Shown: positions 20,603 through 33,623 of the stretch, piece by piece
Layout of the letters: every line of letters begins with the position of its first letter
How positions within the stretch are numbered: position 1 is the first letter of the stretch
Assembly: GCF_008041935.1 (NCBI RefSeq)
Contig: NZ_VKAC01000008.1
Coordinates: forward strand, 62,001 to 126,000
DNA from: Quadrisphaera setariae
GTDB taxonomy: Bacteria > Actinomycetota > Actinomycetes > Actinomycetales > Quadrisphaeraceae
Length of the DNA stretch: 64,000 bases
Direction: 5' to 3'
Position numbers and translations under genes: made by a program
The notes under the pieces: generated by a model
Database searches by the model: none
The model's input: only the letters and a program-made list of their open reading frames with translations
Told to the model about the DNA's origin: nothing

Positions 20603-21286
20603 TCAGGTCTCCGGCGTCAGGGCGTTGAGCTGGAGGCACCACGCGTCGCCGTCGAGGGCGGCCACCTGCCAGCGGTCCCCGGACCAGACGAGGTAGAGGT
20701 CGGTCTCGGCGCGGTACCCGAGAACGGGGCCCTGCGTCCCGTCGCTGCGGTGGACGACGAGATCGGAGACGTCGACGGTCGTGTGGACCAGCGCCGCCTC
20801 GCCGTCGGTCCCCACCACCGTGAGCGCCGGCGCGTCCATCCCGGGCTCGCCGAGGCGTGCGCCTCGCGCCTGGGCCTCCTGGACGGGCGCTGCGAGCTCC
20901 TGGCAGGTGGAGCAGCTCGGCGCCTGCGCTGCCGCGAAGCCGGCGAAGTCGCCGGTGCGGTAGCCGTGCTCGTAGGCGGTGACGAAGGCCCGGGCGGCCG
21001 CGGCGGCACCCTCGGCGTCCGGAGTGGTGACGGGCGTGGAGGACGGCTGGTCCGCCGGAGGCGCTGCGGCCCGGCGAGGCCTCTCCTGCTCGGTGTGCGG
21101 ACGGCCGCCCCCTGACGGGTGCGGCCCGGCGAGCACCGACGCGGACAGCAGCAGCGCGAGCCCGACGGCTCCGGTCAGCAGCCCCGCCACGACCCCGAGG
21201 CTCACGAGACCGACGACGCGCCAGCGGCGGCGACGCCGCTCGGGGTGCGGTGGCGTCGGCACGGGCGGGAGCTGCTGGTCGACCAT
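20603..21286 (-). CDS. DUF6318-like membrane-anchored protein
   Basis: 227 residues. A proline-rich cytoplasmic tail and basic patch (ERRRRRW) lead into one membrane helix (about 25-50), then an extracytoplasmic domain with FVTAYEHGYRTGDFAGFAAAQAPSCSTCQELAAPV and a conserved tryptophan-rich end (LVWSGDRWQVAALDGDAW). The cystatin/NTF2-like pattern with a CxxC cysteine pair matches DUF6318 of actinobacteria. Function unknown. The ATG start is 7 bases after TAGCCT. Confidence 0.7.
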   Translation of the reverse strand: MVDQQLPPVPTPPHPERRRRRWRVVGLVSLGVVAGLLTGAVGLALLLSASVLAGPHPSGGGRPHTEQERPRRAAAPPADQPSSTPVTTPDAEGAAAAARAFVTAYEHGYRTGDFAGFAAAQAPSCSTCQELAAPVQEAQARGARLGEPGMDAPALTVVGTDGEAALVHTTVDVSDLVVHRSDGTQGPVLGYRAETDLYLVWSGDRWQVAALDGDAWCLQLNALTPET

Positions 21287-21293
21287 GGTGGTG

Positions 21294-21299
21294 AGGCTA
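21294..21299 (-). promoter_or_regulatory. -10 box TAGCCT, leaderless arrangement
   Basis: TAGCCT on the minus strand lies 7 bases before the ATG of the DUF6318-like gene. Confidence 0.45.
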
Positions 21300-21377
21300 G
21301 GAACGGAGCGACAGCTCGCGCTGATCTTGGTCTCCGGGCTGTGGATGACCGCTCAGGGGCGCTGCCCGCGCTGCACG

Positions 21378-21395
21378 GCGCAGCGCGCGCTGCGC
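21378..21395. repeat. 18-bp perfect palindrome
   Basis: GCGCAGCGCGCGCTGCGC is self-complementary and sits between two divergent genes. It may be an operator, but its simple GC composition makes chance plausible. Confidence 0.3.
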
Positions 21396-21460
21396 TGCTC
21401 GCCCTGCGCTGCTCAGCGCGCCGTCCCGGGTGCTGTGATCGCCCGTGCGACGCTGTCGCC

Positions 21461-22252
21461 GTGGGTCTCCTCGCTCGCGGCGCCGCCGCCGTCCTGGCGC
21501 TGAGCACCGCCGCCGCTCTCGGCGGGTGCGCGCTGCTGACCACGGACGAGACCGACGCAGCGGCTCCGTCGACGGCGCCGCCGCTGACCACGCCGTCGTC
21601 GTCCTCGTCGGCTCCTACCGGCGGCGGGGACCCGGCGAGCGCCGGCTACGCCGTCCTCGAGACGGACGACAGCACCGGCGAACCGATCCGGTACAGCTCC
21701 TGCCAGCCCGTCCGGTACGTCACCCAGCTCGACGGCGCACCGGAAGAGGTGGAGCGGCTGGTCGCCGACGCCGTCGCCACGGTCTCGCGCACCACCGGGC
21801 TGACGTTCGTCGACGAGGGCAGCACCGACGAGGAGCCGTCACCCGACCGCGAGGCGCAGGTGGCGCAGTACGGCGACGACCGCTGGGCGCCGGTGCTCAT
21901 CGCGTGGACCGACGACACGACCATCCCCGACCTCGCGGGCGACACCGTGGGCCTGGCGGGCAGCCAGGCGTACACCGACGCCGACGGCCGCAGCGCCTAC
22001 GTCAGCGGTGACGTCATGCTCGACGGACCCGACCTCGCCGACATCCTCACCGAGCGCAACGGACCGGCGCAGGTGCGGGCGGTGGTCGTCCACGAGCTGG
22101 GTCACCTCGTGGGCCTCGACCACGTCGACGACCCGACCCAGCTCATGTTCGCCGAGGACAACCCCGACGTCGTGGAGCCGGCCGCGGGAGACCTGGCGGG
22201 GTTGGAGGCCATGGGCGCCGGTCCGTGCGTGGAGGACCTCGCCACGCCCTGA
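21461..22252 (+). CDS. matrixin-like zinc metalloprotease lipoprotein
   Basis: 263 residues from GTG. The N-terminus is a lipoprotein signal (GLLARGAAAVLALSTAAALGGC, lipobox LGGC at about 19-22), then a Ser/Thr linker. The catalytic domain (about 70-250) carries HELGHLVGLDH, with H211, E212, H215 and H221 as the HExxHxxGxxH zinc site, followed by a methionine turn (TQLMFAED). This is the metzincin pattern of matrixins (M10). It is predicted to act on the outer face of the membrane. Substrate unknown. It is divergent from the DUF6318 gene. Confidence 0.85.
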   Translation: MGLLARGAAAVLALSTAAALGGCALLTTDETDAAAPSTAPPLTTPSSSSSAPTGGGDPASAGYAVLETDDSTGEPIRYSSCQPVRYVTQLDGAPEEVERLVADAVATVSRTTGLTFVDEGSTDEEPSPDREAQVAQYGDDRWAPVLIAWTDDTTIPDLAGDTVGLAGSQAYTDADGRSAYVSGDVMLDGPDLADILTERNGPAQVRAVVVHELGHLVGLDHVDDPTQLMFAEDNPDVVEPAAGDLAGLEAMGAGPCVEDLATP

Positions 22253-22295: not shown

Positions 22296-22775
22296 TCAGG
22301 TGAGCTGACCCGCTGCTCCGACGACGACGAGCACCGCCGACAGCAGCAGCGCCGCCGCGCTGAGCGCCACCCCCGCCACCGCAGTTCGGCTCGCGGGGGT
22401 CCGCCGGCGCACCGCGACGACCGAGACGGCGAGGCCCGTCGCACCGAGGAGCCAGGCGGTCGTCCGGACGGTCGGGCCGAGGGCGGGCAGCAGGCCGGAC
22501 AGGACCGTCACGAGCAGCGCCGCGGCGCCGAGGGCGGCGGCGATGAGCACCAGGTCGTCGGTGGGCGCCTCGGTCTCGTAGGGCGCTGGCAGCGCACCCG
22601 TGCCCTCCTCAGCGGCGTCGGAGATGGGGCTGCTCCTGACGTCGTCGCTGCTGCTCCCGTTGCTGCTGACGGCCTCGACGCCCGTGACGTCGTCGTCGAG
22701 GGGACCGGCGGGCACCGGTGCGCGCGGGGCGCGGTCCAGCGCCGCCGGGACGCGCGGTGCGCGGTGGTCGGACAC
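22296..22775 (-). CDS. small integral membrane protein
   Basis: 159 residues, not recognised. An acidic, Ser-rich cytoplasmic N-terminus of about 70 residues is followed by three to four hydrophobic segments (LVLIAAALGAAALLVTVLSGLL, WLLGATGLAVSVVAV, VAGVALSAAALLLSAVLVVVG). The GTG start is fixed by a TACCGT box 6 bases upstream. It may be a structural or accessory membrane protein; nothing nearby suggests a task. Confidence 0.6.
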   Translation of the reverse strand: MSDHRAPRVPAALDRAPRAPVPAGPLDDDVTGVEAVSSNGSSSDDVRSSPISDAAEEGTGALPAPYETEAPTDDLVLIAAALGAAALLVTVLSGLLPALGPTVRTTAWLLGATGLAVSVVAVRRRTPASRTAVAGVALSAAALLLSAVLVVVGAAGQLT

Positions 22776-22781
22776 GCACTC

Positions 22782-22787
22782 ACGGTA
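22782..22787 (-). promoter_or_regulatory. -10 box TACCGT, leaderless arrangement
   Basis: TACCGT on the minus strand lies 6 bases before the GTG of the small membrane protein. Confidence 0.45.
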
Positions 22788-22939
22788 GCCACGAGCAGCG
22801 GAGCAGACCCGAACACGGCCGGATCAGGCTGCTGCTCCGAACGGGTGACGCGCTGGCGGGTCGGCTCGCTCCTGCGCACGGGGCGTGCGGGGCGGCCGAT
22901 CAGGTCCCGGACACCACGAGCACGGGAGCGGCGCCCAGC

Positions 22940-24874
22940 ATGACCAGACCAGAGGTGGCGGACGCGCACGCCCTCGCGTCGTCGGCGGAGACCTCCACGG
23001 CAGACGCGTCACCGGCAGACGCGTCACCGGCAGACGCGTCACCGGCAGAGATGGCTGCGCGAAGGTGGGCGGTGTCGACGGCGCACGCCGCTGGGCCGGT
23101 CGTGCGGTCCGCCCAGCTGCTGGGGCGGAGCGCCGGTCTGGTGGCCCGAGGCGCCGGCTTCCTCGCGCGGGGCGCGGCGCACCCCGCGCTGTGGTCGGCG
23201 GTCCGCCGTGGCGCCGCGCAGGTGGGCCCCGGCTGCCGGGGGCTGCACCGCGGCCTCGTGGCGCTGCTGCTGTGGCTGCCCCGGACGCTGCACCGCGTGC
23301 TGCTGTGGGCCTCCGGCACGGACCACGCGGTGCTGCGGTCGGTGACGGCCAAGGAGCGGGCGGGCCAGGAGGCCCTCGGTGCGGTGATGTTCGGGTCGGC
23401 GCTGCTCGCCGGTGGCTCGTCGTACCTGGCGTTCCAGATCCTCACGGGAGGGTCGGCGCTGGCGTCCGCGGCCCTCGGCCTGTGCTGGGCCGCGATGGTC
23501 TTCACCATCGACAGGTTCTTCGTGCTGAGCGCGGGCCGGTCGGACCGGTGGTGGAAGAACGTGCTCACCGTGGCGCCCCGCCTGGTCATCGCGGTGCTCA
23601 TCGGCCTGGTGGTCTCCACGCCGCTGACGCTGGCGGTCTTCGACCGGGAGATCGGCGCCGAGATGGCCGCGATGCACCAGGAGCAGAAAGCTGAGAGCGT
23701 GCAGCGGCTGAGCACGAACGCCCAGTTCGGGGTGCTGCCCCAGCTGCGGGACCAGCGCGAGGCGCAGCTGGCGACCGCCCGCACGGCGACGTCGGCGTCG
23801 GCGGTCACCGACGACCCGGCCGTGCGCGACGCCCAGGCGCGCGTGGACGCGGCCGCCGCAGCGCTGGCCGCCGCCCAGCAGGACGTGACGTGCGAGGCGG
23901 AGGGCCGTTGCGGGTCTGGTGAGCCGGGCGCCGGGGCCGCCTACGCGAGCAAGGTCGCCGCGCGCGACACGGCCACCGCGGCGCTGGCCGCGGCCCAGGG
24001 CGAGCTGGCGGCGGTCCAGGCCACGGCTCGTGACGGGGCGGCCTCGTCCCGCGCCGACGCCGCGAGCGCCGCACAGCGGCTCGACCAGCAGATCACCGCG
24101 CTCGAGCAGCAGCAGCGCGACGCGGCCGCGGTCGAGGCGACGGCCATCGACGCGGACACCGGGCTGCTCGCGAGGCTGTCGGCCCTGCACCGCCTCAGCA
24201 GTGAGAACGGCGTGCTCGCCAGCGCCCACTGGCTCCTCTTCGCGTTCCTCACCGCGCTGGAGGTGATGCCGGTGCTCGTCAAGCTGCTCCTGAGCCTGGC
24301 GAAGCCCTCCGCCTACGAGGAGGCCCTGGCCGCACGGTCGGAGGAGCTGCGGGCGCGGGCCACGTGGGTGAGCGCGGCCCGCGAGCGCGAGCTGGAGCGG
24401 CGCGAGGATCGCCGCGTGCTGCTGGAGCAGGCGGAGGTCGACGGGCTGCTGGCCTTCGCCGAACAGAAGGTGGGCCGCCAGCTGCACCTGGCCGAGCAGG
24501 AGGCCGCTCGGGCCGACGCGCTGGTGGCCACCCGGGAGGGGCTGCGGCTGGAGCGGGAGCGGATGCGCACGCTGCGGGCGCTCAACCTCGACCGGCTCGC
24601 CGAGGGGCTGCCCCCGCTGGACCTCGACAGCGGCTCACCGGTCGGCGCGGTCGACACCCCCGTCACGGCCGGCGCGGAGAGCCCGGCCGGTGGTGCCGGC
24701 CAGGTCGGCGCTCACCGCCAGGTCGGCGTGGTCGGCCCCGTCGCGCCGGCGGAGCCGGTGGCGCCTGACCTCCGGTCCACCTCGCTGCTGCTCCCCCACC
24801 CGTGGGACCCGCGGGAGCCGGTGGCGGTCTACGACCTCCGGGACGTGCTGCGCCGTCCGCCAGGCCGGCCCTGA
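22940..24874 (+). CDS. DUF4407 membrane protein
   Basis: 644 residues. The DUF4407 core begins near residue 130 (LLWASGTDHAVLRSVTAKERAGQEALGAVMFGSALLAGGSSY) with two membrane helices, then FTIDRFFVLS and a third helix pair (VAPRLVIAVLIGLVVSTPLTLAVFDREIGAEM). A long Ala/Gln-rich coiled coil (about 240-410) follows, then another membrane helix (WLLFAFLTALEVMPVLVKLLLSL) and a charged helical tail. DUF4407 proteins have no known function. The ATG at 22940 is chosen because upstream sequence is compositionally unlike coding sequence. A 15-bp tandem repeat lies near the 5' end. Confidence 0.82.
   Translation: MTRPEVADAHALASSAETSTADASPADASPADASPAEMAARRWAVSTAHAAGPVVRSAQLLGRSAGLVARGAGFLARGAAHPALWSAVRRGAAQVGPGCRGLHRGLVALLLWLPRTLHRVLLWASGTDHAVLRSVTAKERAGQEALGAVMFGSALLAGGSSYLAFQILTGGSALASAALGLCWAAMVFTIDRFFVLSAGRSDRWWKNVLTVAPRLVIAVLIGLVVSTPLTLAVFDREIGAEMAAMHQEQKAESVQRLSTNAQFGVLPQLRDQREAQLATARTATSASAVTDDPAVRDAQARVDAAAAALAAAQQDVTCEAEGRCGSGEPGAGAAYASKVAARDTATAALAAAQGELAAVQATARDGAASSRADAASAAQRLDQQITALEQQQRDAAAVEATAIDADTGLLARLSALHRLSSENGVLASAHWLLFAFLTALEVMPVLVKLLLSLAKPSAYEEALAARSEELRARATWVSAARERELERREDRRVLLEQAEVDGLLAFAEQKVGRQLHLAEQEAARADALVATREGLRLERERMRTLRALNLDRLAEGLPPLDLDSGSPVGAVDTPVTAGAESPAGGAGQVGAHRQVGVVGPVAPAEPVAPDLRSTSLLLPHPWDPREPVAVYDLRDVLRRPPGRP
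23000..23044 (+). repeat. three tandem 15-bp units
   Basis: GCAGACGCGTCACCG is repeated three times exactly, coding for ADASP repeats in the disordered N-terminus of the DUF4407 protein. Confidence 0.85.
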
Positions 24875-24957: not shown

Positions 24958-26217
24958 TCAGGTGGCCCGACCACCTCGCCAGCGCAGCACCTCCAGGGCG
25001 GTGGCGACGGCGAGCGCGTCCTCGGCCAGCGGGCGGGGCAGCAGCTCGTCGGCGCGCGCCAGCCGTCGCAGCACGGTGTTGCGGTGGGTGAACAGCCGCT
25101 GCGCGGTGCGCGTGACGCTCCCCAGCTCCCGCACGTGGGTGAGCACGGCGTCCCGCACCTCCGAGGGCGCCTCCGCCAGAGCGCCGAGCGTGTCGCCGAT
25201 GAACTCCTCCACCCGCGCCGGGTCGGCGGTGACCAGGTCCACGAGCTTCACGTCCTCGTAGCGCACCACCTGCCGGGGTGAGGTGAGCCGGGCGAGCAGC
25301 CGCTGGGCGGTCAGCGCGTCGAGGTGGCTGCGGCGGAAGCCCTCGACGTCACGGCCCGCCCGCCCGAGGGCCACCCGGACCGACGGGGTGGCCACCAGGT
25401 GACGGGCGAGGTCGTCCGCAGCGACCTCCCCGGCCACCGGCAGCCACAGCCACAGCGCCGTCGCCCCCGCCACCACGGTGAGGCGGCGACCGGTTCCGGC
25501 GGCGCGCGCCACGGCGTCGGCGGCGGCCTCCATCCGGTCGGTGCCCGCCTCGGTGGTCCAGACGACGGCGGCGGTGTGCGGGCCGGTGAGGCCGTACCCG
25601 AGCTGCACCTCGGCGCGGGCCCGGCCGATGGGCGCTCCCTCCAGCAGCAGCGTCACCACGGCGCGCCGCTCGGCGTGGGCACCGCGGGTGAGCTCGGCGC
25701 GCTCGGCGTCCATGTGCTCCACGACGGCGGCCACCGTGTCGTCGAGGAAGGTGGAGATGGACAGCGCCGAGACGTCGAGCAGCTCCCGCAGCAGCGCCGG
25801 GTCGTCGGTGAGCTCGAAGCAGGTGGCCGTCCACTGCCGCCACACGACGCCCTGCACCGCGCGGTAGGCCTCCAGGGCGCGCTGGTCGAGTCCGCGGCGG
25901 ACCAGGTCGCGCGCGGTCTCCAGGGCCTCCGGGCCGGTGCCGGCGGGCACGCGCGCACCGGGGTCGCGGACGTTGGCGGTGGCCCACAGGAGCAGGTTGG
26001 CCTCGTTCGTGCGGCGGACGGCGGCCGCGAGCACCGGGTCGGCGGCCACGGCGCGCATCCTCCCGGTGCTCAGCGACGCCTCGTGCAGCTGCGCCACCCA
26101 GGTGGCGCGCACGTCGAGCGCCGTCTGCGCACCGCGGCGGAACAGCTCCCGCACCTCGGTCGACGGCTGTGGCCAGTCAGCATCCGCCCCCACCACCACC
26201 GCAGCATCGTGCACCAC
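24958..26217 (-). CDS. PucR-family transcriptional regulator
   Basis: About 419 residues from GTG at 26217 (a neighbouring GTG at 26214 is equally possible). There is an N-terminal helical sensory region, then a GGDEF-like segment (about 190-300), and the C-terminal PucR helix-turn-helix with SVTRTAQRLFTHRNTVLRRLARADELLPRPL. PucR-type proteins respond to small metabolites and often control a divergent operon. Here that is the monooxygenase-hydrolase/SDR operon, 64 bases away, with two palindromes between. A longer reading upstream would run into the neighbouring gene and was not chosen. Confidence 0.85.
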   Translation of the reverse strand: MVHDAAVVVGADADWPQPSTEVRELFRRGAQTALDVRATWVAQLHEASLSTGRMRAVAADPVLAAAVRRTNEANLLLWATANVRDPGARVPAGTGPEALETARDLVRRGLDQRALEAYRAVQGVVWRQWTATCFELTDDPALLRELLDVSALSISTFLDDTVAAVVEHMDAERAELTRGAHAERRAVVTLLLEGAPIGRARAEVQLGYGLTGPHTAAVVWTTEAGTDRMEAAADAVARAAGTGRRLTVVAGATALWLWLPVAGEVAADDLARHLVATPSVRVALGRAGRDVEGFRRSHLDALTAQRLLARLTSPRQVVRYEDVKLVDLVTADPARVEEFIGDTLGALAEAPSEVRDAVLTHVRELGSVTRTAQRLFTHRNTVLRRLARADELLPRPLAEDALAVATALEVLRWRGGRAT

Positions 26218-26239
26218 AGGACGGCGCCACCGGTGCACG

Positions 26240-26251
26240 GTGCTGCAGCAC
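26240..26251 (+). promoter_or_regulatory. 12-bp palindrome in the PucR/monooxygenase gap
   Basis: GTGCTGCAGCAC is a perfect palindrome in the 64-base divergent gap and a candidate operator half of a paired site. Confidence 0.45.
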
Positions 26252-26281: not shown

Positions 26282-28756
26282 GTGACCGTGATCCCAGACC
26301 CACCCGTCGGGCTCGAGCACCTCGACGTCGTCGTCATCGGTGCCGGCATCTCGGGCATCGGTGCCGGGCGCTACCTGGCTGCTGAGCTGCCGGGCACCTC
26401 CTTCGCGATCCTCGAGGCGCGGGGCGCGTCCGGCGGCACGTGGGACCTGTTCCGCTACCCCGGGGTGCGCTCCGACTCCGACCTGTCGACGTTCGGGTAC
26501 GAGTTCAAGCCCTGGCTCGACGAGCAGGCCATCGCCGACGCGCCGCGCATCCTGCGCTACCTGCGCGAGGCGGCCACCGAGGGCGGGCTGGACGACAAGA
26601 TCCGCTACCACCAGCGGGTGGTGGACCTGTCGTGGAGCAGCCAGACCGCCCGCTGGACGGTCACCGTCGAGCGCACCGACAGCTCCCCCGACCAGTCCGA
26701 CCAGCCCGAGCGGTTCCAGCTCACCGCCGGCTGGGTGTTCGCAGGTACCGGCTACTTCCGCTACGACGCCGGGTACACCCCGGACCTGCCAGGGCTGGAG
26801 CGCTTCGCCGCCACTCCCGGCAACACCGTCGTGCACCCGCAGCACTGGCCGGCCGACCTCGATGTGACGGGCAAGCGCGTCGTCGTCGTCGGCAGCGGAG
26901 CCACGGCCGTGACGGTGGTGCCGGCGATCGCCCAGACCGCCGCCCACGTGACGATGCTGCAGCGCACACCCACCTACGTCATGCCCGTCTCCCGGGGTGA
27001 CGAGCTCGGCGCGAGGCTGCGGCACTGGTTCGGCGACGAGCGGGGCGCAGCGCTGACCCGGCGCAAGAACATCGCCAAGCAGCGCGCGGTGTGGCGCTTC
27101 AGCCAGGAGCACCCCCGCGCCGCCCGCGCGATCTACCGGCGGGTGGTGACGAAGCAGCTGCCCGAGGGCTACGACGTCGACACCCACTTCAATCCCCCGT
27201 ACGACCCGTGGGACCAGCGCGTGTGCGCCTCCCCCAGCGGTGACCTCTTCGCGGCGATCCGGTCCGGGAGGGCGTCGGTGGTGACGGACCGCATTGACAC
27301 CTTCGACGCCACGGGCGTGCGGCTGGTCAGCGGCGAGCGGCTGGAGGCCGACGTCGTCGTGACCGCCACGGGACTTGCGGTGCAGATCTTCGGCGGGGCC
27401 CGCGTCTGCGTGGACGGTGAGGGGGTCGTGCTGCCCGAGCGGCTCGCCTACAAGGGGATGATGCTGTCCGGGGTGCCGAACCTGGCCTTCTCGATCGGGT
27501 ACACCAACTCCTCTTGGACGCTCAAGGTCGGGCTGCTGTGCGAGCACCTCGTGCGGCTGCTGCGCCACATGGCCGAGCACGGGTACGACACCGCGCGGCC
27601 CGTGCCGTCCGACCCCGGCATGCCGACGCGGCCCTACCTCGACTTCGGCGCCGGGTACATCCAGCGCGCGGTCGACGAGCTGCCGAAGCAGGGCAGCCGG
27701 CCGCCGTGGACCACGTCGATGGACTACCGCTCGGACGTCGCCGTGCTCCGTGAGGGCAGCGTGGTCGACCCGGAGCTGCAGCTGACCTCGCTCCAGCGAC
27801 CCGATCCGGACCGCTTCGTGCAGCTGCCCGCAGGCCCGCGGATCTGCTTCCGCGACACCGCTCAGGACGACGACGACGGCCGCGAGGTGGTGCTGCTCAT
27901 CGCCGGACTGGGACAGGACCTGACCGCATGGCCGGCGGCCTTTGTCGACGGGCTCGTGGCGCGCGGACTGCGGGTGGTGCGGTTCGACAACCGCGACATC
28001 GGACGGTCCAGCCGCATCGACGCCCCCGCGCCAGGGCTGGCGCGGCAGCTCTTCCGTCAGCCGCGGCCTGACGCGTACGACCTCGCCGACATGGCAGCCG
28101 ACGCCGTCGGCCTGCTCGACCACCTCGGCGTGCAGCGGGCGCACGTGGTGGGGCAGTCGCTCGGAGGGATGGTGGCGCAGGTGCTGGCGTCGCGGCGTCC
28201 GGACCGGGTCGCGTCGCTGACGTCCCTGTACTCGACGACGGGTGCCGCCGGTGTCGGTGGTGCGGCGCGGTCGACGCTGTGGCGGCTGCGCCACGCCCCC
28301 GCCACCACGGTGGAGGTGGCCGTGGCGCGCCACCTCGGGATGGTCCACCACCTCGCCGGTCCGGGCTTCCCCCTGTCCGACGACGACGCAGCCGCCGAGG
28401 AGGCCCGCGCCCGCGGCGCGTGGGAGCGCGGAGGCGGGCCGGCGTCGAGGATCGGGCCAGCGCGACAGATCCAGGCGATCGCCGCCAGCGGTGACCGGAC
28501 CGCGGAGCTCGCCCGGGTGACGGCGCCGACGCTGGTCGTCCACGGCGACCACGACGTCATGGTCCAGGCGAGCGGCGGTGCGGCGACGGCGGCCGCGATC
28601 GCCGGGTCCCGGCACGTGGTGGTCCCCGGGATGGGGCACCTCGTGTCGTCGGCGCTGGTCGAGCGGCTCGTGGCGCTCGTCGGTGACCACGTGGCGAGCG
28701 CCGCGGCGGGGGCCGACGGGTCCATCAACCAGGAGTTCGAAGGAGCGCAGCAGTGA
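26282..28756 (+). CDS. Baeyer-Villiger-type FAD monooxygenase fused to an alpha/beta hydrolase
   Basis: 824 residues. Residues about 10-500 are an EtaA/MymA-like monooxygenase: VVIGAGISGIGAGRYL (FAD), TWDLFRYPGVRSDSDL, VVHPQHWPADLDVTGKRVVVVGSGATA (fingerprint end and NADPH site) and VVTATG. The BVMO fingerprint FxGxxxHxxxWP is altered: one extra residue separates Gly from His. Residues about 510-815 are an alpha/beta hydrolase with oxyanion region IAGLGQDL, nucleophile S626 in GQSLG, acid in HGDHD (756-758) and H786 in GMGHL. The monooxygenase would turn a ketone into an ester and the hydrolase would cleave it. It overlaps the downstream SDR by 4 bases (GTGA). Confidence 0.9.
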   Translation: MTVIPDPPVGLEHLDVVVIGAGISGIGAGRYLAAELPGTSFAILEARGASGGTWDLFRYPGVRSDSDLSTFGYEFKPWLDEQAIADAPRILRYLREAATEGGLDDKIRYHQRVVDLSWSSQTARWTVTVERTDSSPDQSDQPERFQLTAGWVFAGTGYFRYDAGYTPDLPGLERFAATPGNTVVHPQHWPADLDVTGKRVVVVGSGATAVTVVPAIAQTAAHVTMLQRTPTYVMPVSRGDELGARLRHWFGDERGAALTRRKNIAKQRAVWRFSQEHPRAARAIYRRVVTKQLPEGYDVDTHFNPPYDPWDQRVCASPSGDLFAAIRSGRASVVTDRIDTFDATGVRLVSGERLEADVVVTATGLAVQIFGGARVCVDGEGVVLPERLAYKGMMLSGVPNLAFSIGYTNSSWTLKVGLLCEHLVRLLRHMAEHGYDTARPVPSDPGMPTRPYLDFGAGYIQRAVDELPKQGSRPPWTTSMDYRSDVAVLREGSVVDPELQLTSLQRPDPDRFVQLPAGPRICFRDTAQDDDDGREVVLLIAGLGQDLTAWPAAFVDGLVARGLRVVRFDNRDIGRSSRIDAPAPGLARQLFRQPRPDAYDLADMAADAVGLLDHLGVQRAHVVGQSLGGMVAQVLASRRPDRVASLTSLYSTTGAAGVGGAARSTLWRLRHAPATTVEVAVARHLGMVHHLAGPGFPLSDDDAAAEEARARGAWERGGGPASRIGPARQIQAIAASGDRTAELARVTAPTLVVHGDHDVMVQASGGAATAAAIAGSRHVVVPGMGHLVSSALVERLVALVGDHVASAAAGADGSINQEFEGAQQ

Positions 28757-29607
28757 GCGGGACCGTGAACAGCGTGGCCGGCAAGGCGTGCGTGGTGACC
28801 GGCGCGGGGTCGGGCATCGGCAGAGCGCTCGCGCTGGAGCTGGCCAAGCGCGGTGCTCGCCTGGCGCTGTCCGACGTGTCCGAGGCGGGGCTGGCCGAGA
28901 CGGCGCAGCGGGCCCGGGCGCTGGGCGCGCGGGTCCACACCGCCCGGCTCGACGTCAGCGACAGGGACGCGTTCTTCGCCTACGCCCGCGTCGTCGTCGA
29001 CGAGCTCGACGTGGTCCACCAGCTCTACAACAACGCGGGCGTGGCCAGCAGCGGCACCGTGATCGAGAGCGACTGGTCCGAGTACGAGCGCGTGCTGGGC
29101 ATCAACCTGTTCGGGGTCATCCACGGGACGCAGGCGTTCCTGCCGCACCTCGTGGCGTCCGGTGACGGGCACGTCGTGAACATCTCCAGCCTCAACGGGT
29201 TCATGGCGCAGAGCGGGCTGTCGGCGTACAGCGCGAGCAAGTTCGGGGTGCGAGGGTTCACCGAGGCGCTGCGCGCGGAGGTGCTCGCCGCCAGACAGCC
29301 GGTGCGGGTGACCGTGGTGCACCCCGGTGGGGTGCGGACGAGCATCGCGACGTCCGCGCTGGAGCACGCGAAGGCGTCCGGGCACCAGGTGAGCACAGAG
29401 GAGGAGGCGCAGCAGCGGCGCTACAACGAGAAGCTGCTGCGGATGCCTCCGGAGCAGGCGGCGCGGATCGTCGTCGACGGGGTGGAGGCGGGCAGTCCGC
29501 GGGTGCTCGTGGGCCGCGACGCGAAGGTCGTCGACGCCGTCGTGCGCCTGGTGCCGCGCCACTACCCGGCGCTCGTGGCGCGGCTCGCGAGGCGCACGTC
29601 CCGCTGA
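28753..29607 (+). CDS. SDR-family dehydrogenase, SadH-like
   Basis: A 284-residue classical SDR: TGAGSGIG (about 17-24), LYNNAGVASSG, ISSLNGFMAQSGLSAYSASKFGVRGFTEALRAE with the Ser-Tyr-Lys triad, and a long C-terminus. The closest recognisable relatives sit beside mycobacterial mymA (SadH type). Coupled by overlap to the fused monooxygenase-hydrolase, it could supply the ketone by oxidising a secondary alcohol, giving a three-step alcohol to ketone to ester to acid plus alcohol route. That order is inference. Confidence 0.88.
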   Translation: MSGTVNSVAGKACVVTGAGSGIGRALALELAKRGARLALSDVSEAGLAETAQRARALGARVHTARLDVSDRDAFFAYARVVVDELDVVHQLYNNAGVASSGTVIESDWSEYERVLGINLFGVIHGTQAFLPHLVASGDGHVVNISSLNGFMAQSGLSAYSASKFGVRGFTEALRAEVLAARQPVRVTVVHPGGVRTSIATSALEHAKASGHQVSTEEEAQQRRYNEKLLRMPPEQAARIVVDGVEAGSPRVLVGRDAKVVDAVVRLVPRHYPALVARLARRTSR

Positions 29608-30737: not shown

Positions 30738-33623
30738 TCAAGCGGCCGGTAGGTCGTCGAACAGGTACGGCTCTTCTCCGCCCTGGTCGATGTCGTCGTC
30801 GTGCTCGGGTGCGGGTTCGGGTGGGGCGTCGGTGAGGACGGCACGAGCCCAGTCCGTGGACCACACCACCGCGTCCTCGTCCTGTCCGCTCTCGCCGGTC
30901 CCGGTAGCTGGTCGTGTGCCGGCCGGACGTCCATCCGGTGGCCACCCCACCCAGGCGGGCAGGACGTCAGCCAGCAGCCGGTGCACCCACCCCGGCAACC
31001 CACCCACGTCGGTGCCCCCTGTTCCGCCGGCGCCGACGACTTCCTCCGCTGCGCAGGAGTCGCACGTCATGCCCGCTCCTCCTGAGGCGCTGTCCTCCCC
31101 AGGGCCTGCGAGGGTGTCCTCAGGGTCCAGCAGCACCTGCGGGCTGACGCGGTAGGTGTGCCCGGTCGGTGCGGTCCACACCACCCCGTCCCCTGGCGCC
31201 GGCACAGGGTCACCTGGTCCGGGCGGACCGGTGCGCTCTACCGCCACGCTCCAGCCGTGGCCGGGGCGGGCGTGCTCCCCGGCCTGCTTGAGCAGGTGCT
31301 CGCTCTGGGCCAGCAGCTGCAGGTTCGTCACCTCCGTCGGCCCACCTGAAGGGTCACCGGCGGCGTAGGGCTGGACGTGGTCGAGCTGCCCACCCCCAGC
31401 ACCACCCCCACCGCTGCCGCCACCAGCAGGGCCGTGGTCGGCCCCCACCGCACGGGTCGAGGACGGCAACGTCGAGGACCACCACCGCAGCCCCACCAAC
31501 CGCGCCAAGGCCGTGCTCGGTCGCCACGCCCCCTCTTCGATCCCGACCGCCGCACCACAGGCGGGATCGGCCAGCACCCGACGCCACAAGCCGTCCGCGG
31601 CGATCCGCAGTGCCGCCACCGCACCGATCGGCCCGTACCCGGCCAGCTGCGCCCCGATGGTGGACACCCCCGCCAGCACCGTCCACGGCAGCACCAGGTG
31701 CACCACCGGCTTGGACGCCGCCGTCCGCGCGATCGGGTACCACGTCCCCGACACCCCGGAGGTCTCAGAGATCTCCAACGCCGCGGTCGCCCACTCCTTC
31801 ACCGCAGCGATCCGGTGAGCATCCAGGCTGCCCACCGCACCCCGGTCGAACGGGCGCCCCTGCTCCCTGGCAGCGGCGCGCTCGGCAGCGCGGGCCTGCT
31901 GCTGGCGGCGGCGGGCACGGGCGTCCATCGCCGCGGTGATCACGGCGATGTCCTCCGCCGGTCCCCGCAGCTGCAACGCCGCCTGCCCGTCAGCTTCTGA
32001 CCACCGCGCGGTGGAGCACCCCGCACGGGCCTTCGCCGCACGACGCTGAGCAGCGTCAGCATCAGCGCGGTGCACGGCGGTGTTCAGGCGCTTGGTCCAC
32101 GCCCGCCGGTTCGGGCCCAGCCCCGCCCCGGCCGTGGGCCGCGATGTCGCACCCGCCGGACCAGACGGCGCAGCACTGCTGGAGCCGTCGCCGGAGCCGG
32201 TGCCGGTGCCGGTGCCAGTGCCGGTGGTGGTGTCAGAGCTGGGGTCAGAGCTGGGCGCCAGGTCCTGCCCGGCGCCACCAACAGACCAGCTGGAGGTGCC
32301 GGTGGCACGCTCCAGCAGCTCCCGACGCACCGCGGCAGCGACCTGCTCGGCGTGCGCGGCAGCAGCTGCTTCGGCGCGGGCGTCCACCTCGGCCTGGTCA
32401 GCGGCGGCCCGCGCCCGCAGCTGCTCCCGACTCAGCGGCGGCTGCCCGGACTCGGCTCGGGCAGCGTCCTGCGCTGCGCGCTCCTCCGCCAGCGCCCGCT
32501 CGCGGGTGGTGCTCTCGCGTTCCAGGGCGGAGAGGTAGGCGGTGGTGCGCACCGCGGACAGCTGCTCCAACATCCACGACCCCGCTGCCGCGGGCAGGGC
32601 TCCGGCGGCCATCGCCGCGGCCACGTCCCGCTGGGCTCCCACCGCGGCCAGGCCGCGCTCGACGAGGGCGTCGGCGGCGACCGAGCCGATGCCCAAGCGC
32701 GCGCACAGCTCCGAGGGCGCGGTGGAACGGGGGCGGATCGCCCAGGGGCGGCCCTTGCCGTCGCGGGCGGTGGCCGCGCGGGCATCCGCGACGTCGGCGT
32801 CGGCTTCGGCAGCACGGCGGGAGGCGAAGACCCCGGCGATCTGGTCTCGGCGGGCTGCCAGCGCGGCGATCTGGCGTTCGCACGCCGCGACCGCCTCGAC
32901 CAGCTCCGCATCCGAGGTGGCACCCCAGGCCGGGACACCAGCAGGCTGGACGGCGTCGTCGGACGGGTCGGCGTCGTCGCGCAGGCTGCGGTCGTCGGAC
33001 TCCCCGGGGTGGACGCTGGGCTGGTCTGGTTTCGCGGCTGATGCGGACTGGTCCGATGCGTCATCGAGGTCGAGCGGTGCGGCGGCCCCGGACGCGTGCT
33101 CGGCGTCCGGCCCGGCCGCGGGGTCACCTCCGTCATGAGCGGGGTCGCCCGGCGTGGAGGGGTCCGGCGCTGCTCCTGCCACCGCGGCGTCCGTGGAGCG
33201 GCAGGCAGCGTCCAGGTCTGCGGCGAGGTCACCCCACAGCTCCTCCACCGCCGCCACCAGCTCCGCACCCGGGGTCAGTGCCGCCCACTCCAGCGCCACC
33301 GCATCGCGCACCCCCAGCAGGCAGGCCTCGGGCAGCAGCGCCCGGGGAGACGCCTCCGGCTCTGCCTCGACGCCCACCGGCTCCTGAGGCGTCGGCCGCA
33401 GAGCACCTGGGGTGCAGCCCTCCTGGTCGCAGTCGCCGGTGCCCTCGTCGTCGTCATCATCGACGACGGCAAACGACGCCTCCGCAGAGGCAGCACTACC
33501 GGCAGCGGGCCCGTCACCCAGGGCCAGCAGCTGCACCGAGGACTCGAGCTCGTACCCCTCCGGGTGCGCCGCCGCACGCCACCACAGGCGCGCCGCGAGG
33601 CGCTCCTCCAGCAGCGATTCCAT
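30738..33623 (-). CDS. large DUF222-like HNH endonuclease-signature protein
   Basis: 961 residues, about twice the usual length of actinobacterial DUF222-HNH proteins. Acidic low-complexity stretches (about 60-230 and 440-490) interrupt a helical DUF222-like region containing RGKRRAWTKRLNTAVHRADADAAQRR-type sequence. The C-terminal HNH part (about 760-860) reads GQLDHVQPYAAG, then EVTNLQLLAQSEHLLKQ, then VVWTAPTGHTYRV. H-N-H residues can be placed, but the CxxHH pair of normal members is LAQSEH. Such proteins are abundant in actinobacteria, often associated with the mobile gene pool, with no proven role. A Gly/Thr repeat comes from GTGCCG-type DNA repeats near 32200. Confidence 0.75.
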   Translation of the reverse strand: MESLLEERLAARLWWRAAAHPEGYELESSVQLLALGDGPAAGSAASAEASFAVVDDDDDEGTGDCDQEGCTPGALRPTPQEPVGVEAEPEASPRALLPEACLLGVRDAVALEWAALTPGAELVAAVEELWGDLAADLDAACRSTDAAVAGAAPDPSTPGDPAHDGGDPAAGPDAEHASGAAAPLDLDDASDQSASAAKPDQPSVHPGESDDRSLRDDADPSDDAVQPAGVPAWGATSDAELVEAVAACERQIAALAARRDQIAGVFASRRAAEADADVADARAATARDGKGRPWAIRPRSTAPSELCARLGIGSVAADALVERGLAAVGAQRDVAAAMAAGALPAAAGSWMLEQLSAVRTTAYLSALERESTTRERALAEERAAQDAARAESGQPPLSREQLRARAAADQAEVDARAEAAAAAHAEQVAAAVRRELLERATGTSSWSVGGAGQDLAPSSDPSSDTTTGTGTGTGTGSGDGSSSAAPSGPAGATSRPTAGAGLGPNRRAWTKRLNTAVHRADADAAQRRAAKARAGCSTARWSEADGQAALQLRGPAEDIAVITAAMDARARRRQQQARAAERAAAREQGRPFDRGAVGSLDAHRIAAVKEWATAALEISETSGVSGTWYPIARTAASKPVVHLVLPWTVLAGVSTIGAQLAGYGPIGAVAALRIAADGLWRRVLADPACGAAVGIEEGAWRPSTALARLVGLRWWSSTLPSSTRAVGADHGPAGGGSGGGGAGGGQLDHVQPYAAGDPSGGPTEVTNLQLLAQSEHLLKQAGEHARPGHGWSVAVERTGPPGPGDPVPAPGDGVVWTAPTGHTYRVSPQVLLDPEDTLAGPGEDSASGGAGMTCDSCAAEEVVGAGGTGGTDVGGLPGWVHRLLADVLPAWVGWPPDGRPAGTRPATGTGESGQDEDAVVWSTDWARAVLTDAPPEPAPEHDDDIDQGGEEPYLFDDLPAA

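Follow-up and report, generated by a model that had tools for sequence, protein, structure and literature searches.

A predicted monooxygenase-esterase fusion in a PucR-linked operon of Quadrisphaera setariae

The fused gene and its two halves

The DNA examined here, called the window throughout, is a 64,000-nucleotide stretch of the genome of the soil bacterium Quadrisphaera setariae, and its gene at positions 26282 to 28756 (plus strand) joins a Baeyer-Villiger-type flavin monooxygenase (BVMO) and an Abhydrolase_1 esterase/lipase domain in one polypeptide. The frame runs uninterrupted from a GTG at 26282 to a TGA at 28756 and encodes 824 residues with no internal stops. The BVMO-type domain comes first (residues 12 to 503; 26315 to 27790, plus strand), as placed by Pfam, fold match, and motifs, and about 15 linking residues lead to the alpha/beta hydrolase domain (residues 530 to 808; 27869 to 28705, plus strand), placed by Pfam and fold match. 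The Pfam matches themselves lie within residues 15 to 235 (Pyr_redox_2/FMO-like) and at 536 to 788 (Abhydrolase_1). The structure model falls below a confidence of 50 at residues 506 to 508 of the junction region (residues 504 to 529; 27791 to 27868, plus strand). A short-chain dehydrogenase/reductase (SDR) of 284 amino acids (28753 to 29607, plus strand) follows, recognized by Pfam and by the motifs TGxxxGxG (residue 16), NNAG (93), and YSASK (159). Its GTG start overlaps the TGA stop of the fusion gene in the four bases GTGA (28753 to 28756), and the coupling of the SDR to the fusion gene in the same operon, claimed in a first-pass annotation of this DNA, is thus upheld. The hydrolase-SDR fusion model PRK05855, which is of the EphD type, scores 212.5 bits against a cut-off of 455, and the SDR here is a separate gene.

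The same fused frame is intact in three other genomes of the genus (G007, G087, and G101), and the junction peptide is similar among the intact congeners. These genomes rule out a frameshift or misassembly joining two normal genes and, together with the single open frame, support the earlier description of the monooxygenase and hydrolase as one 824-residue polypeptide. The contig of G143 stops a little beyond the BVMO half, its frame open to that point, while in G129 (the same locus as L013, from Quadrisphaera sp. INWT6) the frame is broken inside the BVMO half. A record deposited as Streptomyces sp. NP160 (L009) carries a locus 80 to 92% identical to that of the window, with the same open reading frames (ORFs) as G087, and is likely a misnamed member of the window's genus. 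When the window is compared with L009, L091, and L092, in that order, the ratio of nonsynonymous to synonymous substitution (dN/dS) in the BVMO half is 0.17, 0.18, and 0.30; the hydrolase half gives 0.16, 0.22, and 0.20, and the remaining ends and linker 0.35 to 0.49. The low values show that purifying selection maintains each half.

The BVMO half carries both Rossmann motifs (GxGx2[GA]) of type I BVMOs, GAGISG at residue 20 and GSGATA at 204. The BVMO1 fingerprint [GA]GxWx4[FY]P[GM]x3D is matched at residues 51 to 65 (GGTWDLFRYPGVRSD; 26432 to 26476, plus strand), ending in the presumed catalytic Asp65. Across an alignment of 164 rows, in which the window is counted twice, this fingerprint occurs in 163 rows and the Asp column is invariant (164/164), as is Arg313 of WDQR (27218 to 27220, plus strand; 164/164), which by its position is the presumed counterpart of the catalytic BVMO arginine.

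The BVMO2 region (FAATPGNTVVHPQHWP, residues 175 to 190; 26804 to 26851, plus strand) is the divergent part. The strict BVMO2 pattern is present in 150 of the 164 rows and in no row of the window's genus, and one report (PMC9044951) describes the motif as one that can be degenerate and that is part of the linker joining the FAD domain to the NADPH domain. The first-pass annotation had noted one extra residue between Gly and His, which is literally so for GNTVVH; on the alignment the change is a four-residue loop insertion, common to the five congener sequences compared (the window, L009, L091, L092, and L093), which read F-AATPGN-TVVHPQHWP where L016 reads F-RG-PVVHPQHWP. The insertion is absent from the fusions L010, L012, L014, L121, L115, L178, and L179, and BVMO2 loops lengthened in other ways are found in the unfused L097, L098, and L101. 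On these alignments the insertion is unrelated to the fusion, and the altered chemistry proposed from it is not indicated. By descent and fold the domain is BVMO-like; by the strict BVMO2 fingerprint it is not a member.

The hydrolase half matches Abhydrolase_1 at 83.8 bits (cut-off, 25.8). In an alignment of 50 rows, with the window counted twice and L153 and L165 identical, the predicted nucleophile Ser626 of GQSLGG (28157 to 28159, plus strand) is conserved in 50/50 rows, the triad acid Asp758 (28553 to 28555, plus strand) in 49/50 with one gap, and the triad base His786 (28637 to 28639, plus strand) in 48/50 with two gaps. The complete Ser-Asp-His hydrolase reported earlier therefore stands as to Ser626 and His786, and the choice left between two acids falls on Asp758 (49/49 non-gap rows) rather than residue 756, which is Asp in only 36/49. 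The triad is conserved in fused and separate hydrolases alike. The nearest solved relative is the metagenomic lipase ORF17 (PDB 8pzg), 34% identical in the fold alignment with a TM-score of 0.87 on the target; it is a single-domain chain of about 300 residues, whereas the window's hydrolase is half of a fused protein.

Related loci and the PucR regulator

The set of related loci comprises the best 80 of 578 confirmed relatives found by tblastn. Four are fused (L009; L010, Streptoalloteichus; L012, Pseudomonas chlororaphis; L014, Comamonas composti), 33 encode the two enzymes as separate neighboring genes, 41 show no hydrolase scoring 100 bits or more in the stretch, one (L013) is a frameshifted copy of the fusion, and one (L011) ends at a contig end. 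Loci with an identifiable hydrolase thus number 38: 33 with two separate genes, four fused, and one with the frameshifted copy. Many tblastn matches looked full-length, and the widespread fusion that they implied was rejected, as most are two overlapping genes. An SDR scoring 90 bits or more occurs in 44/80 loci and a PucR homologue in 70/80. Two Geodermatophilus loci hold C-terminal remnants of a hydrolase between BVMO and SDR (L039:7512-7754, 81 residues; L045:7573-7647, 25 residues). These are two of the 41 hydrolase-less loci, and the remnants show hydrolase loss in progress in that Geodermatophilus group.

Relative to the BVMO stop, all 33 separate hydrolases share a single frame. The stop reads [AGT]TGA in 32 of them (GTGA in 23, ATGA in 8, and TTGA in 1), and in the remaining one (L047) CTGA is followed by TG, giving TGATG; the frameshifted L013 is left out of these counts. 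A four-base overlap is partly automatic with any TGA stop, so the 41 loci without a hydrolase serve as a control, in which [AGT]TGA occurs at the BVMO stop in 18 compared with 32/33 beside a hydrolase.

A search for the fused domain order, suggested by the first-pass annotation for actinobacteria, was carried into whole-genome samples and found further fusions (L121, G169, and G684); the fusion counts are lower bounds, as a minority of the neighborhoods in these samples was inspected. In the phylum sample, 46/396 genomes have a match at E 1e-60 or better, with at least one further fusion (G346, L121); in the order sample, 246/297 have some match, with at least one fusion to a more distant hydrolase (G169). 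Within the family of Pseudomonas, 55/148 genomes have a strong match, of which at least one is fused (G684), and G724, G788, and G800 have a neighboring separate hydrolase. On a Streptomyces plasmid (L178) both domains lie in one open frame, although only the hydrolase is annotated as a gene in the record. A literature search found no paper on a natural BVMO-hydrolase fusion, though most subscription journals lay outside its reach, and this is no proof that none has been published.

Divergent from the operon lies a gene for a PucR-family regulator (24958 to 26193, minus strand) with a GGDEF-like domain and the PucR helix-turn-helix HTH_30. Its start is uncertain, and 26193 is an estimate: the frame stays open as far as 26358, and similarity to the family sets in at about residue 63 of that frame. 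Pfam GGDEF_2 and HTH_30 are both matched, and the NCBIfam Rv1453-family model scores 444 bits, below its cut-off of 600, in agreement with the earlier naming of the local regulator as PucR and not AraC-type VirS. A PucR homologue is divergent and upstream in 67 of the 80 loci by script, and L043, mis-scored through ORF extent, makes a 68th.

Between the divergent PucR and BVMO genes, an inverted repeat, GCAGCATCGTGCACC-N16-GGTGCACGGTGCTGC (26201 to 26246; half-sites GTGCACC/GGTGCAC), is a candidate PucR operator; the same arms and spacing recur in L009. Among the 74 of 80 loci with sufficient upstream length, GTGCACC occurs in 42 upstream stretches against a background rate of 0.10, and the pair TGCACC/GGTGCA in 24 against 38/3700 random stretches of the same loci. 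These figures are to be read knowing that the motif was chosen after the window's repeat had been seen, that the background includes coding DNA, and that the loci are related. The stricter pair GTGCACC-N5-35-GGTGCAC is found in only 7/74, a count with no background rate alongside. PucR binding at the repeat is a prediction, and the repeat is a candidate site only.

Further out, a 718-amino-acid protein with a DUF4407 domain (225 bits; 22718 to 24874) adjoins the 3' end of the PucR gene, and a Matrixin-like (Peptidase_M10) protein with a HELGH motif is encoded at 21119 to 22252. Beyond the SDR, a 961-amino-acid frame (30738 to 33623, minus strand) has no Pfam match at E 1e-5 and partly overlaps a long frame on the opposite strand, the second half of which carries an alpha-amylase domain.

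Repeated joining of the two enzymes

Phylogenetic analysis of the BVMO domain (163 rows) requires six state changes to account for the 10 fused rows, at least three of them forced by well-supported branches; the fused rows include L115 and L178, and the reversed fusion L179 is left out. The hydrolase-domain tree (49 rows) requires five changes for its eight fused rows, again with at least three forced, and rejects a single fused clade (p 0.0002). On these trees the fusion arose more than once, though the state changes could include fission. Separate genes are the likely starting state because the overlap arrangement is widespread. The number of residues between the aligned halves is 15 to 16 in the window, L009, and L092, 20 in L010, 37 in L014, 40 in L012, and 44 in L121.

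The placement of the window's genus differs between the parts of its operon. The BVMO half groups with Klenkia and some Geodermatophilus (L015, L016, and L018; support 88/92, not starred), and the SDR groups weakly with Klenkia (92/76). At the Klenkia terrae locus next to the window's genus in the BVMO tree (L017:6001-8363), the order is PucR-BVMO-SDR, there is no hydrolase, and the BVMO and SDR genes overlap at ATGA. The hydrolase half of the genus does not group with the Geodermatophilus hydrolase (p 0.004 to 0.009), a test whose groups were named after the tree was seen and in which the branch of the window's genus is long; with 13 of the 49 rows left out (ten long-branched or distant rows and three near-copies), p is 0.014 to 0.020. 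The topology suggests that a hydrolase was acquired a second time in the window's genus, and fast change after fusion would leave the same picture. A fuller scenario, which we consider rather doubtful, gives the halves different origins: an ancestor shared with Klenkia would have kept PucR-BVMO-SDR without a hydrolase, and the window's genus would then have acquired another hydrolase by in-frame capture. The pathway would have been rebuilt in this way as one enzyme that takes a ketone to an acid and keeps the ester between its two sites. If so, the window's genus would be an example of a choice that evolution has made repeatedly, whether to fuse the genes for these two steps or to leave them overlapping.

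Proposed pathway, rival readings, and known systems

The reading that we favor, at a probability of about 0.6, is that of a catabolic operon linked to PucR and headed by a gene in which a type I BVMO-like flavoenzyme and a serine esterase are naturally fused, working from ketone to ester to acid. With FAD, NADPH, and O2, the BVMO half would insert an oxygen beside the ketone carbonyl to yield an ester or lactone, which the hydrolase half would cut to an acid plus an alcohol or to a hydroxy acid. The SDR may interconvert alcohol and ketone, either supplying the BVMO half with its ketone or acting on the alcohol that is released. The fusion, its intact-looking hydrolase, and the SDR of the operon fit the order of alcohol to ketone to ester to acid put forward in the first-pass annotation; we infer the reactions, their order, and the substrate class from sequence. 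The fusion would be the derived form of two overlapping and probably translationally coupled genes, and its likely benefit would be a fixed 1:1 ratio of two sites lying close together, which would keep the ester from accumulating. By analogy, the logic is most likely that of acmA-acmB of Gordonia sp. TY-5, described as a BVMO and an esterase in one operon, the esterase cleaving the BVMO product, within a pathway that includes secondary alcohol dehydrogenases (PMC6215540). As described there, acmA and acmB are two separate genes, whereas the window encodes one polypeptide, with an SDR in the same operon and a PucR neighbor.

Several observations weigh against this reading. The strict BVMO2 fingerprint FxGx3Hx3W[PD] is not matched, the corresponding segment being four residues longer, and fold matches of the BVMO half to solved BVMOs are moderate (TM-score on the target of about 0.6 to 0.7). 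No hydrolase of at least 100 bits lies near the BVMO in 41 of the 80 loci, so the pairing is not obligatory. The AlphaFold2 model of the fusion protein (54 rows; mean per-residue confidence [pLDDT], 83.7; predicted TM-score [pTM], 0.63) does not fix the placement of the two halves relative to each other. Linker lengths also differ widely between fusions, which speaks against a fixed tunnel as the means of the direct ester passage suggested in the first-pass annotation.

The most serious rival, which we nonetheless consider unlikely, is that the fusion is a cotranslational convenience only, a product of neutral drift of overlapping genes whose halves act on different or loosely related substrates (for example, sulfide or amine oxygenation and the action of a general lipase). 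It would account for the variable linkers, for the separate, overlapping genes that are the common counterpart of the fusions, and for the 26 of 80 loci in which PucR and BVMO were found with neither hydrolase nor SDR. However, several genera keep the pair as neighboring genes, purifying selection acts on both halves, and BVMO-hydrolase fusions also occur with other hydrolases and in reverse order. The reversed case is DR_RS15615 on plasmid MP1 of Deinococcus radiodurans (L179:2954-5455), a natural fusion of 833 amino acids with its Abhydrolase_3 hydrolase first, where the window has its BVMO first and an Abhydrolase_1 domain; because of the reverse order and the different hydrolase family, it is of independent origin.

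A lactone route, in which the BVMO would convert a cyclic ketone (terpenoid, macrocyclic, or steroid-like) to a lactone whose ring the hydrolase would open, is improbable on present evidence. Among NCBIfam models, the hydrolase half scores best against a macrolide esterase (107 bits; cut-off, 420) and the PcaDC enol-lactonase (98 bits; cut-off, 390), matches that favor this route though both scores are far below cut-off, and cyclic-ketone BVMOs rank high in the fold search of the BVMO half. The nearest solved hydrolase is nevertheless a lipase, and the fold ranking mirrors the set of BVMOs with solved structures.

Direct descent from the mycobacterial BVMO-LipR-SadH cluster is very improbable, and the description of the locus as a compressed mymA operon is not supported: the regulator and the hydrolase family differ, and the BVMO stands apart from the EthA type. 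In favor of descent, the mymA operon shares the order of monooxygenase, hydrolase, and SDR, and the SDR of L218, a cluster taken as mymA-like from its gene order and lying outside the tree, is 49% identical to that of the window. The mymA regulator, VirS, is AraC-type, whereas the regulator here is PucR. The 326-amino-acid hydrolase of L218 belongs to Abhydrolase_3 and not Abhydrolase_1, and its BVMO is 44% identical to that of the window, compared with 60 to 63% for the BVMOs of 11 mycobacterial loci, the closest mycobacterial relatives among the best 80. PucR is divergent in 11/11 of these, and neither a hydrolase nor an SDR was found beside the BVMO in any of them. Other mycobacterial paralogues, at about 51 to 53% identity (L212 and L217), have a separate relative of the window's hydrolase alongside and PucR downstream. 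The window's BVMO falls in a different part of the tree from the rows taken as EthA and Rv0565c types, labels that rest on neighbors read by eye (an EthR-like regulator for the L157 clade) and not on a family scan; the EthA rows, L157 with four relatives, are in a clade of their own. With the EthA/MymA-like type I BVMOs of mycobacteria it shares a broad branch (about 44 to 50% identity), the BVMO1 motif, and the HPQHWP segment, and it differs from them in its link to PucR, its loop insertion, and its fused hydrolase. Descent from mymA is largely rejected on these grounds, and the resemblance is, judged by gene content and order, one of logic.

An assembly or sequencing artifact has a negligible chance of explaining the fusion: the broken frame in one congener (L013, also G129) indicates that errors or mutations occur here, but three other congeners are intact across a similar junction and more distant fusions exist.

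The chemistry proposed for this enzyme is familiar, and its interest lies in the repeated evolutionary joining of two enzymes. In biocatalysis, BVMOs can be slowed by the esters and lactones that they form, and cascades of this kind have been served by artificial BVMO fusions. Repeated natural fusions, beside relatives with separate overlapping genes, provide matched pairs in which the value of fusion, whether in stoichiometry, proximity, or channeling, can be measured directly.

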